This document shows, in pieces, positions 2,440-61,711 of a stretch of 64,000 bases of DNA. Position 1 is the stretch's first letter; every line of letters begins with the position of its first letter. The stretch is from positions 1-64,000 of the forward strand of contig CACKYY010000002.1 of assembly GCA_902604525.1 (NCBI GenBank), in the 5' to 3' direction. A program made the translations under genes and the position numbers. The stretch is from an uncultured Pelagibacteraceae bacterium (GTDB lineage Bacteria; Pseudomonadota; Alphaproteobacteria; Pelagibacterales; Pelagibacteraceae). The notes below the pieces were generated by a model, which was given only the letters and a program-made list of their open reading frames with translations, did not search any database and had not been told where the DNA came from.

Positions 2440-3534
2440 TTACTTTAATGTTGCTGCGTGAGCCATTCCTAGCTTAGCATTTGACATTTGAGAACCACTC
2501 CAGAAAGGAACTGCTATATCAGCAAATTCTTTCATTGAAGTATATACTTCATTGAAAAATTTGTTATCTGCAGCGTTCTTGTTTAAAGAAGCTTTTGCAG
2601 CAGCCATATATTCTGTGAAATAATCAGAAGGTGTATCTTCTAAAATTACTCCATGAACTTCTGTTAGTTCTTTCAAAGCTTTACCATTTTCATAGATTCT
2701 GTAACTTAAAGATTTTGCTAATGATGCATTAGCAGCTACTTCAAGAGACTTCTTCTCATGATCAGACATTGCATTGTAAGTTTTTCCAGTAATATAAAAG
2801 TCAGCATTTACGACTACTTGGTGTAAACCTTGTAAGTAATAGTGCTTCAATACTTTTTGGAAACCAAAAGTTAAGTCTGGTTTTGGACAACACCATTCAG
2901 CAGCATCAATTGTACCTGCTTCTAAAGCTGGTAGAATGTCTCCACCGCCCATAGCTACAGATGCTATACCAATGTCTTTATAAGTTTGTCCTGGAATTCC
3001 TGGAGGAGTTCTGAATTTATATTTTCTAAAGTCAGCCATATCTTTAATTGGTTTTGGAAACCAGCCTAAAGCTTCTGGTCCAACTGGTTGAATCATAAAT
3101 CCTTTAATGTCTCTTCCCATTTCTTTCCATAATTGGTCATATAGTTCTTTTCCACCACCATATTGGAACCAAGATAAGAATGCGATATTATCAATACCTA
3201 CACCACCACCAGCTACTGGCGAACCAAATAACATAGCTGCAGGGTGATCACCTGACCAATAGTGAGTCCATGCGAAACCACAATCGATTAGACCTTTATC
3301 AACTGCATCTAAAGTTTCTTTTACACCAACAACAGCTCCTGCAGGTAAAATTTCAAACTTTAGAGATCCAGACGTCAAAGTTGTAACAGTGTCAGTAAAG
3401 TCTTTTAACATCTTAACTTCATCAGCTTTAGTGTTAAGTACTGTCTGACATTTTAGAGTTTTTGCAGCATTAGCATTTGAAATAAATCCAAACACCATTG
3501 CAACTGCAAATAACATTGAAATGATTTTTTTCAT
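2440..3534 (-). CDS. dctP: TRAP transporter solute-binding protein DctP (TakP-like, 2-oxo/keto-acid type)
   Basis: Signal peptide MKKIISMLFAVAMVFGFISNANA; LEAGTIDAAEWCCPKPDLTFGFQKVLKHYYLQGLHQ typical of TakP-like TRAP SBPs; adjacent to dctQM. Confidence 0.9.
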   Translation of the reverse strand: MKKIISMLFAVAMVFGFISNANAAKTLKCQTVLNTKADEVKMLKDFTDTVTTLTSGSLKFEILPAGAVVGVKETLDAVDKGLIDCGFAWTHYWSGDHPAAMLFGSPVAGGGVGIDNIAFLSWFQYGGGKELYDQLWKEMGRDIKGFMIQPVGPEALGWFPKPIKDMADFRKYKFRTPPGIPGQTYKDIGIASVAMGGGDILPALEAGTIDAAEWCCPKPDLTFGFQKVLKHYYLQGLHQVVVNADFYITGKTYNAMSDHEKKSLEVAANASLAKSLSYRIYENGKALKELTEVHGVILEDTPSDYFTEYMAAAKASLNKNAADNKFFNEVYTSMKEFADIAVPFWSGSQMSNAKLGMAHAATLK

Positions 3535-50997: not shown

Positions 50998-52254
50998 TTA
51001 CATATTAGCTAGAACTGAGTCAGCTAATGCGTTTGCAGCATCTACTGAAGACATATCAGAATTAAAATGTTCTGTAATTATATCTTGTAGAGCAGCTTTC
51101 ATAGTATTACCTTGCGCCATACCATGAGCGAAACTTGGAACTAATCCACCTTTTGCACCTGCAGTTTTGATATCTGCATTAGATGTTTTTGCACACTTAT
51201 CAAATTCATCCATTGATACGTCTAGACGAGCTGGTATTGAACCTTTGTATAGGTTAAAAACTTTTTGAAAGTTCTTACCCATCATTAGTTTAGCTAATAA
51301 CTTTTGACCAGCTTGTTTGTCTGGATCACTAGACTTGTAGAAAATAAAACTATCTACGTTGTATAAGTAACCATTATTTGATGGAGTTGCGGCACAATAA
51401 TAGTCTACACCTGGTGTTTTACCAGCAGCTGTAAATTCTCCTTTAGCCCAATCACCCATAATTTGAAAACCAGCTTTACCTTCAATAACCATACCGGTAG
51501 CAACGTTCCAGTCTCTTCCTGGACTACCTTCATCAGTATAACCTTGTAGTTTTCTCATTTGATCAAAAACCTTAACTGTAGTTTCGCTTCTCAAACAACT
51601 TTCTTTTAGATCAACATAGCAATTTTTATAGTAGTTATTTCCACCTATACCCATAGCAACTGCTTCAAAAACTGTAGCATCTTGCCAAGCTTGTCCACCG
51701 TGAGCAAAAGGAATTATACCAGCTGCTTGTAACTTATCAGCAGCAGCATTTAATTCATCCCATGTAGTTGGAACTGAAATACCATTTGAATCAAATACAG
51801 CTTTATTCGCCCACATCCAGTCAATTCTATGAATGTTTACTGGAGCTGCACAATAAGGTCCGCTGTTATTTTCACATTTATGAATAGCTGCAATCATCGG
51901 ATCTAATAAATTATCCCAACCTTCAGATTGAGCAATTGAGTCAATATTGTATGGAGCAACTACACCTTCTTGATCATACTCTTGAATTGTAGGACCTTTT
52001 ATTTGTGAAGCAGATGGAGGATCACCAGCAACAATTCTTGCTTTTAATGCAACGTTAGCAGCGTCTCCACCACCACCTGTTACAGGCATGTCTAACCATT
52101 CACCACCATTAGCAGCAAAATCGTCTTTTAAAACTTTTAAAGCAGCTGCTTCACCACCTGAAGTCCACCAGTGCAATACCTCAATTTTTGGTCCTGCATA
52201 AGATGAGGTAGATGTGAATGCAAATGCAATCAAAGCGATTAATAATTTTCTCAT
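50998..52254 (-). CDS. Sugar ABC transporter substrate-binding protein
   Basis: Signal peptide; KIEVLHWWTSGGEAAALKVLKDDFAANGGEW typical of family 1 extracellular sugar-binding proteins. Confidence 0.93.
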   Translation of the reverse strand: MRKLLIALIAFAFTSTSSYAGPKIEVLHWWTSGGEAAALKVLKDDFAANGGEWLDMPVTGGGGDAANVALKARIVAGDPPSASQIKGPTIQEYDQEGVVAPYNIDSIAQSEGWDNLLDPMIAAIHKCENNSGPYCAAPVNIHRIDWMWANKAVFDSNGISVPTTWDELNAAADKLQAAGIIPFAHGGQAWQDATVFEAVAMGIGGNNYYKNCYVDLKESCLRSETTVKVFDQMRKLQGYTDEGSPGRDWNVATGMVIEGKAGFQIMGDWAKGEFTAAGKTPGVDYYCAATPSNNGYLYNVDSFIFYKSSDPDKQAGQKLLAKLMMGKNFQKVFNLYKGSIPARLDVSMDEFDKCAKTSNADIKTAGAKGGLVPSFAHGMAQGNTMKAALQDIITEHFNSDMSSVDAANALADSVLANM

Positions 52255-55573: not shown

Positions 55574-56080
55574 TCAATAATAGTAAAGATTAGTGATTAT
55601 TCCAGGAGGAAATCTTAGTCCTAAAATCATTTCAAAAAAAATAAAGACAACTAATGGAAAAATTATACTTACTAGTAATAAATAAAAAATTCTTCTTTCG
55701 CCCCAATAATAAGAGACAAAAATTGACAATACTGAGATTGCTAGAAAAAAATCTAAATTTTTTGAGATAATTATAAAAATAATGAAACTCAAAATTGTAA
55801 GGAAAAAAGACTTTGGTAAACTTTTTTCCTTTTTCCAAGGTTTTTTAAAAGACAAATAATAAATAATTGAAGTTAACGCTATAATTAAGACTAGTAATCC
55901 CTTCGGGAATGTTGCTGGTTGAATACCTCTGTTTAAAATTGGTGGAACAGTATCAAATGAAAAAGTTGATATTAGTAAAATTGCTGAAACTAAAATAATT
56001 ACAAAAAAAACCTTAAATTCTGTCCTAAAAAAAAAGGGCAAACTTTTGTTTGCCCTTTTTTTATCATGTACATTATTCAT
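55574..56080 (-). CDS. tctB: Tripartite tricarboxylate transporter TctB
   Basis: 4-TM small protein between tctC and tctA; start site uncertain because a terminator-like hairpin lies at codons ~7-17. Confidence 0.8.
   Translation of the reverse strand: MNNVHDKKRANKSLPFFFRTEFKVFFVIILVSAILLISTFSFDTVPPILNRGIQPATFPKGLLVLIIALTSIIYYLSFKKPWKKEKSLPKSFFLTILSFIIFIIISKNLDFFLAISVLSIFVSYYWGERRIFYLLLVSIIFPLVVFIFFEMILGLRFPPGIITNLYYY
56027..56060 (-). terminator. Hairpin plus U-tract after tctC, inside the 5' end of the tctB ORF
   Basis: aaaaagggcaaac-tttt-gtttgcccttttt perfect stem, T9 on the - strand. Confidence 0.85.
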
Positions 56081-56104
56081 ATTGAGAAATGTACTTAATT
56101 AAAA

Positions 56105-57079
56105 TTACTTAATGTAACCTAAAGCTTTAAGTTGAGCAGTCATTTCTGCAAGCATAGTTTCCATTTGCTTACCCCACTCATCAGCTCCAACAACACTAGT
56201 TGAATCAAGACCAATGTCAGTTAAAAAACTTTGGAAATATTTATGCTCCATAGCTTTTATCATTGCATCCTCTAATTGCTTTTTTCTATCTCCAGGAACA
56301 CCTTTTTTTGTTACAAAGCCTCTTACTGTAGATAAAACAACTGGAATTCCTAATTCAGTTGCAGTAGGAACATTACTTAATTTTTCCATTCTATTACTTG
56401 CTAAGACAACTGACACACATAATGTACCATCTTCTATTTCAGTAACAGCCTCACCTAAATTTAAAACACCTACATCAATATCTCCTTTGATAAGATTAGT
56501 TTTAATAGGTCCTACACCTTTATAAGCTACAATTGTTGGATCTGTTAATTTTCCTTTTTTAGTAAAAGCAATAGCACTTACATCATCAATACCACCTACG
56601 TGTGTTGTTCCATATTTCAATGATTTTGATTTTTGAGCACTAATAAACTTTTTTGCATCTTTGATGTCATTTTTACAATTAACAACAAATAATTGAGGAT
56701 CATCAGTTCCTCTCGCTAGCGGTTGCATATCACTTAATTTAACTTTGGTTTTTCCCAAAGCCATAGATACAGCATGTCCAGTAGTCCAAGTTAAAGTATG
56801 ATTTCCATCTGCTGGTAAAGTCATCATATAATCCATAGACGCAGCTCCACCACCACCTTTTTTGTTAACTAATTGCATATCTTGTTTTAGATACCTTCTA
56901 GTTCTCAATAACATCATTCTAGTAGTTACGTCTGTACCACCACCAAAACCAGCATGTGTAACTGCTTGAATTGGGTGACCATCTGCTTTTGCAGATGTAA
57001 TCATCAATGGAAGTGCTACAATAAAGAATTCAGTCACTAAAAACGCAGCAGCCAAAAACAACTTAAAGCTTTTTTTCAT
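56105..57079 (-). CDS. tctC: Tripartite tricarboxylate transporter substrate-binding protein TctC
   Basis: Signal peptide; THAGFGGGTDVTTRMMLLRTRRYLKQDMQLVNKKGGGGAASMDYMMTLPADG. Confidence 0.92.
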   Translation of the reverse strand: MKKSFKLFLAAAFLVTEFFIVALPLMITSAKADGHPIQAVTHAGFGGGTDVTTRMMLLRTRRYLKQDMQLVNKKGGGGAASMDYMMTLPADGNHTLTWTTGHAVSMALGKTKVKLSDMQPLARGTDDPQLFVVNCKNDIKDAKKFISAQKSKSLKYGTTHVGGIDDVSAIAFTKKGKLTDPTIVAYKGVGPIKTNLIKGDIDVGVLNLGEAVTEIEDGTLCVSVVLASNRMEKLSNVPTATELGIPVVLSTVRGFVTKKGVPGDRKKQLEDAMIKAMEHKYFQSFLTDIGLDSTSVVGADEWGKQMETMLAEMTAQLKALGYIK

Positions 57080-60778: not shown

Positions 60779-61711
60779 TTATTTAAAATCGTTAGCGTTT
60801 GCTTTTGTTACTAATTGTGTACCAGTATCGATATTTGGATCAATACTTCCACCATTAGCTAACTCAAGAGCATATTTAACTCCATAAGCACCCATGTTAT
60901 AAGAGAACTGAGCAATTGTTGCTGTCATTTCACCTTTTAGAATACTTGTAGCTGCATCTGGTGTAGCATCAAATCCAACAACTACTACATCATTCATATC
61001 AGCATCTTTTAGAGCTTGCATAGCACCTAATCCCATATTGTCGTTTGAAGCAAATATTGCTTTGATGTTAGGATTTTTCAAAATTATAGACTCTGTTACT
61101 GATCTACCTTTTGCTGTATCCCACTCTGCAGTTTGTGTTGCAACAATGTTTAAACCACAATTTTTAAATCCTTTAATTGCACCATCTCTTCTAAGTAAGG
61201 CAGTAGACTGAGACTCAATACCAGTTAAGATCGCAACATCAGAACCTTTTGGAGTTTTATCACAGATAAATTTTGCAGCTAACTCTGCGCCATTCATATT
61301 ATTAGTTCCAATAAATGTTACACCTTCGTTTATTCCTTTAGTATCAACAAATACAACTGGAACTCCACTTTTAATAGCATCATCAACAATTGGTGCAAAA
61401 GCATTTGGATCTCCTGGTGCTAGCGCTAAAGCATCAACACCTTTTGCAAGTTGGTCCTCAACTTGATTTATTTGTGCTTGAACATCACCTTCTTGAGGAG
61501 GTGCAATTAAAATTAGTTTAACTCCTAATTTTTTGGCTTCTTCCTCAGCACCTTTTGTTACAGACGCCCAGAACGGATTTCCAGATCCAGGACCTTTGAT
61601 GCTAAACAAGATTTTTTTACCATGTCCATCAGCAAAAGAAACTGAACCTAAACTAATTGATAAAAATATTGCTGTAAACAGAACAACAATTTTTTTTGTT
61701 AAGTTTTTCAT
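60779..61711 (-). CDS. Ribose-type sugar ABC transporter substrate-binding protein (periplasmic binding protein 2B family)
   Basis: Signal peptide; LFSIKGPGSGNPFWASVTKGAEEEAKKLGV, FASNDNMGLGAMQALKDADMNDVVVVGFDATPDA. Confidence 0.92.
   Translation of the reverse strand: MKNLTKKIVVLFTAIFLSISLGSVSFADGHGKKILFSIKGPGSGNPFWASVTKGAEEEAKKLGVKLILIAPPQEGDVQAQINQVEDQLAKGVDALALAPGDPNAFAPIVDDAIKSGVPVVFVDTKGINEGVTFIGTNNMNGAELAAKFICDKTPKGSDVAILTGIESQSTALLRRDGAIKGFKNCGLNIVATQTAEWDTAKGRSVTESIILKNPNIKAIFASNDNMGLGAMQALKDADMNDVVVVGFDATPDAATSILKGEMTATIAQFSYNMGAYGVKYALELANGGSIDPNIDTGTQLVTKANANDFK

Follow-up and report, generated by a model that had tools for sequence, protein, structure and literature searches.

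A conserved terminator-like hairpin inside the tctB coding sequence of a SAR11 tripartite tricarboxylate transporter operon

The tctC-tctB junction, its two hairpins and the tctB start

The 64,000-nt stretch of DNA analysed here (the window) encodes on its minus strand a tctC-tctB-tctA operon, assigned by Pfam to the tripartite tricarboxylate transporter (TTT) family. The named relatives that carry the tctC protein all belong to Pelagibacteraceae or Pelagibacterales, and the window is thus of SAR11 origin. The genes and the elements of the tctC-tctB junction are as follows.

57079-56105, minus strand: tctC, upstream cistron, substrate-binding protein (SBP) of the TTT family (PF03401 TctC, E 2.2e-16)
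56094-56068, minus strand: hairpin H1, read from the sequence, with arms GTACATT (56094-56088) and AATGTAC (56074-56068) and, in the window, a 13-nt loop that includes the tctB ATG
56080-55574, minus strand: tctB, small membrane subunit (PF07331 TctB, E 6.5e-12, residues 26-158)
56080-56078, minus strand: tctB start codon ATG, 24 nt 3' of the tctC stop codon
56062-56029, minus strand: hairpin H2, terminator-like stem A7-GGGCAAAC-AAAA-GTTTGCCC-T7 in tctB codons 7-18, supported by folding, covariation and third-position diversity
56062-56056, minus strand: A7 of H2, read from the sequence like the next three parts
56055-56048, minus strand: GGGCAAAC of H2
56047-56044, minus strand: AAAA of H2
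56043-56036, minus strand: GTTTGCCC of H2
56035-56027, minus strand: T9 tract of H2, encoding Phe-Phe-Phe
55572-54091, minus strand: tctA, large membrane subunit (PF01970 TctA, E 5.1e-158)

In this order, tctC-H2-tctB-tctA, the hairpin H2 sits between the 5' SBP gene and its membrane-component genes. Its core corresponds to codons 9-15 and, with the A and T tracts, it covers codons 7-18, which encode MNNVHDKKRANKSLPFFF. The terminator-like hairpin that a sequence-only reading had placed in the 5' coding region of tctB was confirmed by direct reading of the sequence and by the ORF listing. The minus-strand RNA from 56125 to 55990 folds at -35.4 kcal/mol, compared with -18.0 +/- 3.1 kcal/mol for shuffled sequences (z -5.6; 0 of 200 shuffles as good).

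Orthologous junctions of this genus and of further genera in the family (158 junctions, giving 101 distinct 120-nt sequences) were compared with that of the window. All 101 have the architecture of an intrinsic terminator, with a 6-9 bp GC-containing core stem, a loop of 4-8 nt and a run of five to nine T (nine in 83 junctions, eight in 9, six in 8 and five in 1). H2 scored as a strong terminator by a formula that is indicative only. It was absent from the minus-strand list of a generic promoter and terminator scan, presumably because the stem was extended through A7/T7, leaving too few unpaired T; the site itself is unambiguous despite this miss. An Rfam search returned 21 matches, every one below the gathering score and mainly to short sRNA models, and H2 was thus assigned to no known Rfam family.

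The second hairpin, H1, had not been described in the sequence-only reading. Both of its arms are found in 98 of the 101 distinct junctions (90 with AATGTAC and 8 with GATGTAC, the latter with one G-U pair), separated by a loop of 9-15 nt, and it is missing in the three most divergent orthologues (L166-L168). The arms are almost invariant though the 5' arm is non-coding. As the stem barely varies, covariation is uninformative for H1. A role of H1 as a DNA operator is unlikely because the spacing between the arms varies from 9 to 15 nt, unlike that of a fixed dimer site. The offset of H1 from the tctC stop codon is 8-15 nt, which approximates the leading edge of a terminating ribosome.

The start codon of tctB was then considered. 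The gap between the tctC stop codon and the tctB ATG ranges from 11 to 27 nt and falls in all three frame classes, and in every one of the 101 junctions a distance of 25, 26 or 27 nt separates the A of the ATG from the first G of the H2 stem. Summing gap and distance puts H2 at 38-53 nt past the tctC stop. There is no Shine-Dalgarno-like sequence ahead of the tctB ATG in the window. The ATG at 56080 does lie upstream of the hairpin, as first reported, and it is followed by no further in-frame ATG, nor GTG, before the first TM segment. The only other candidate among ATG, GTG and TTG in that interval is an in-frame TTG at codon 14, in the 3' arm of the stem.

If tctB started at a non-ATG codon inside the hairpin, such as this TTG, or after it, the hairpin would merely be intergenic, and the related paralogues L039-L044 do start directly after their own hairpin (MIKDIKIL...). 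However, the frame is open from the ATG through the hairpin into TctB in all 101 distinct junctions, and length changes inside the hairpin are of +3 only, whereas the stretch before the ATG shifts by single bases. Moreover, the TTG is just GTTTGCCC spelled out, and it is absent from the hairpins of L166-L168, whose ATG is kept. The non-ATG start past the terminator, which the sequence-only reading had kept as a fallback, was rejected on this frame and indel evidence and appears highly improbable. Since the frame is always open, hairpin indels keep the frame and no other in-frame ATG or GTG occurs before the first TM segment in the window, a tctB start at the ATG upstream of H2 is well supported by the comparison.

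Selection on the RNA structure and on the reading frame

In an alignment of 67 sequences, 94.6% of the cells of the 15-bp stem are paired, and seven pairs have changed on both sides (17 such cells). None of 500 shuffles reached the observed covariation values, the shuffle mean being 2.0 pairs, and controls in which the partner was slid gave 0-2 pairs. The nine innermost pairs of the stem are all standard in the 88 sequences that share the register of the window. The stem alignment suggested in the sequence-only reading thus shows that compensatory changes are kept, and the original observation stands on stronger evidence than was first claimed for it.

The L019-L022 clade gives the clearest example, in which AGG GCA...CCC TTT has become GGG ACA...TCC CTT, so that two pairs were swapped, one from A-U to G-C and one from G-C to A-U. 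This compensatory set is wholly non-synonymous and alters four of four amino acids (RA..PF to GT..SL). In L166-L168, the hairpin is retained in frame and the peptide is largely different (KKGRFNAALFSL, KKGGFLSALFSS). Codons 8-18 have a third-position diversity of 0.007, lower than any other 11-codon stretch of tctB; the values are 0.24 for codons 2-7 and 0.36-0.43 further downstream. Taken together, these comparisons indicate that selection acts on the H2 stem at the RNA level and on the frame at the protein level, and that the stem is kept by evolution even at the expense of TctB amino acids.

Hairpins at other substrate-binding protein genes of SAR11

Of the 39 close co-directional junctions in the window, only 4 carry a strong hairpin no more than 100 nt past the upstream stop codon, each of them after an SBP gene. 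Besides tctC, these are the following.

2440-3534, minus strand: DctP SBP gene with a hairpin and T tract just downstream
50998-52254, minus strand: SBP_bac_1 gene with a hairpin and T tract just downstream
60779-61711, minus strand: Peripla_BP_4 gene with a hairpin and T tract just downstream

At the other gene ends of the window a strong hairpin was found in only 1 of 28 cases. In 400 kb of a complete relative, sampled as 20 separate 20-kb stretches of one genome, such a hairpin was present at 7 of 245 co-directional junctions, five of them after SBP genes and the rest after phoH and metK. Both surveys start from hairpins and covered part of the upstream proteins, so that SBP genes lacking a hairpin could be missed. 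The reverse survey, which covered the TctC, DctP and SBP_bac_3 genes of six SAR11 genomes, found that about 48 of 53 genes have a hairpin no further than 100 nt from their stop codon (47 passing a somewhat looser hairpin filter, plus L197, whose evident hairpin the filter dropped). No hairpin was found after the other five (L225-L228 and L236). L225-L228 form one SBP_bac_3 orthologue group, which has no hairpin though a GTG-starting gene begins at +40. These surveys suggest that SAR11 uses strong hairpins mainly at SBP-permease junctions. A search of the open-access literature found no prior description of SAR11 terminators or of SBP hairpins.

In the 53-gene sample, the hairpin lies inside the downstream ORF at 9 of 11 TctC junctions, while the hairpin-bearing DctP and SBP_bac_3 junctions offer an ATG or GTG downstream of the hairpin. 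Location inside the downstream ORF thus appears, in this sample, to be a feature of tctC-tctB. The tctC-tctB junctions are of several types. Type i, the window family, has the ATG upstream and a hairpin with a T tract in the ORF. In type ii (L189, L192, L262-L291 and L314-L333), a second and widespread lineage (162 of 397 genomes), the GTG start of tctB is part of the 5' arm of a terminator-like stem (GAGCAGTGA/TCACTGCTC), which is followed by T5-T6 or TTCTTT. The GTG is kept and the frame is open in 46 of 46 cases, and the stem pairing is maintained by compensated and wobble changes, with the exception of one unpaired end. A good Shine-Dalgarno sequence (AGGAAGAGCAGTG) precedes some type ii genes and none precedes others. 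Type iii (L191, L194 and L292-L300) has an in-frame GC-rich hairpin that encodes TctB residues, for example GCGCCTGATAAAACAGGCGC, in several sequence versions and without a T tract; it is likely a stabiliser or processing element. Type iv (L185) has an 11-bp stem with a long loop. In the paralogues L039-L044, a GC hairpin without a T tract stands just before the ATG. Outside the window family, the hairpin of SAR11 tctC-tctB junctions can precede the ATG, overlap the start codon or, lacking a T tract, lie within the ORF; the hairpin is constant and its position relative to the start is variable.

Possible roles of the hairpin and comparison with known systems

The reading of H2 that we consider probable is that of a partial (leaky) intrinsic terminator, which would end most tctC transcripts and allow only the smaller part to continue into tctBA, giving an excess of the periplasmic binding protein relative to the two membrane subunits. 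In the window lineage the terminator would have been absorbed into the downstream gene, the same nucleotides serving as the tctC 3' end and as TctB codons 7-18. The T tract kept in all 101 junctions, the association with SBP genes and the covariation all count in favour of this reading. The stem begins 38-53 nt past the tctC stop codon and 25-27 nt past the tctB start, far enough that H2 should not be blocked by ribosomes terminating on tctC or initiating on tctB. In E. coli, near full efficiency is seen for terminators more than about 30 nt past a stop codon or within the initial 100 bp of an ORF, and one placed 30 bp after an AUG by Li et al. (2015) lost only about 10% to translation (PMC4824070). 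In Clostridia, internal terminators after SBP genes set the SBP:permease ratio (PMC9045158). On the strength of the E. coli distances and the Clostridia precedent, H2 can be read as a functional terminator inside the operon, biasing expression towards tctC relative to tctBA. Its strong score gives no sign of leakiness, and tctBA could alternatively be transcribed from a promoter of its own. For Pelagibacter, the published iron-limitation study reports fold changes rather than absolute SBP:permease levels and therefore does not bear on the proposed SBP excess (PMC2864753).

The sequence-only reading had favoured translation-coupled antitermination. As in pyrBI, a ribosome that started at the tctB ATG and trailed RNA polymerase would open H2, and transcription of tctBA would depend on translation of tctB. 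The ATG, ORF and terminator do follow one another as this model requires in all 101 junctions, a terminator within a translated ORF is known from pyrBI (PMC5021804, PMC4824070), and when the ribosome footprint was masked in the folding, H2 was abolished once the P site had passed about codon 5 and reached about codon 6. However, the initiating ribosome itself, which was supposed to unfold the hairpin, covers only to about +15, and with the A tract beginning at +19 and the GGG at +25 to +27 it leaves H2 intact, as does a ribosome at the tctC stop codon in the same type of folding. Furthermore, the E. coli terminator 30 bp inside an ORF lost only about 10% because the ribosome had not caught up (PMC4824070), no competing antiterminator structure appeared in the folds of either free or ribosome-masked RNA, and other tctC-tctB lineages have a different geometry, so that the spacing between ribosome and hairpin is not conserved. 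Antitermination is thus unsupported, and we regard it as quite unlikely. Alternatively, H2 may stabilise the 3' end or mark a processing site, like SRPS or REP elements, the operon being read through and cleaved, the hairpin shielding the tctC message from 3' exonucleases and the T tract being incidental. The GC hairpins lacking a T tract that are kept at homologous tctC-tctB junctions (L191, L194 and L039-L044) are in line with it, and SRPS operons are a known means of setting stoichiometry (PMC8219983), but the tract of 5-9 T is kept in every one of the 101 window-family junctions though it dictates codons there. Overall this explanation seems rather unlikely; a stabiliser or processing role may exist, possibly alongside termination. 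Because several SBP hairpins, those of L191, L194 and L039-L044 among them, have no T tract, the selection shared by SBP hairpins may be partly for 3'-end stability or processing and not for termination.

If H2 acts as a partial terminator, the tctC mRNAs that end there would contain the AUG of tctB plus about 17 codons but lack a stop codon. In E. coli, stop-less RNA of this kind cut expression of the upstream gene by about half, and silencing the AUG restored it (PMC4824070). This effect suggests a job for H1, and for the GTG within the type ii stem, in hiding the tctB start on the terminated RNA. H1, with an AUG in its loop that has no Shine-Dalgarno sequence, may limit futile non-stop translation of these mRNAs. 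Alpha-tmRNA is present in three complete relatives, and ribosome rescue is therefore available; the tmRNA was not found in the window genome, which is incomplete (82%). More tentatively, there may be a recurring SAR11 design in which the 5' end of a gene incorporates the terminator of the SBP gene before it, with the start codon held in a hairpin on the terminated RNA, sparing stop-less messages translation and destruction by trans-translation; we put this forward as a possibility on the doubtful side. The placement of the start in the 5' arm of the type ii stem may dictate GTG over ATG.

Several known systems resemble this junction in part. The terminators of ABC importer operons in cellulolytic Clostridia are, like H2, stem-loops with a U tract directly after the 5'-most SBP gene and before the membrane-component genes, with a role in SBP excess (PMC9045158). 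They belong to ABC transporters of Firmicutes and are intergenic, in regions over 50 bp, whereas H2, as a putative terminator, belongs to a SAR11 TTT transporter and lies within the downstream ORF, coding for the TctB N-terminus. The pyrBI attenuator is also a Rho-independent terminator within an ORF and close to its start, a position that frame conservation and the predicted translation of tctB assign to H2 as well. The pyrBI terminator is in a separate 135-bp leader ORF, pyrL, with programmed pausing of RNA polymerase, while H2 is in the structural gene tctB, where no antiterminator or pause element was found. Construct W48, with tR2 30 bp after the AUG, has nearly the geometry of H2 (25-27 nt), with an upstream cistron, a short gap, a start codon and a terminator, and it yields a stop-less terminated RNA (PMC4824070). 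It is an artificial E. coli construct and, unlike the window junction, has no conserved hairpin around the start codon. SRPS stem-loops, like H2, follow one cistron of an operon and tune its relative level, but they act by processing and decay, require no U tract and are intergenic (PMC8219983). The rhtB element of Ca. Pelagibacter ubique is likewise a conserved SAR11 hairpin, with a tract of 6-9 U in about half of the cases and some copies near liv transporter genes (PMC2704228). It is a bulged, intergenic hairpin with a conserved loop, and the comparison with H2 is by description.

Internal terminators that set the SBP:permease ratio are already known as intergenic elements. The present case would be such a terminator conserved inside the downstream coding sequence, with compensatory changes that sacrifice amino-acid identity, in one of the ocean's most abundant bacterial groups. 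If SAR11 terminators work in this way, genome sequence could reveal much of the stoichiometry of their transporters. Messages lacking a stop codon would then be a routine product of termination, a link between the dense packing of genes and ribosome rescue. The N-terminal residues of such proteins should be interpreted with caution, as they may reflect selection on RNA and not on protein. Were the start-sequestration design true, termination, start-codon sequestration and protein coding would share one stretch of RNA.
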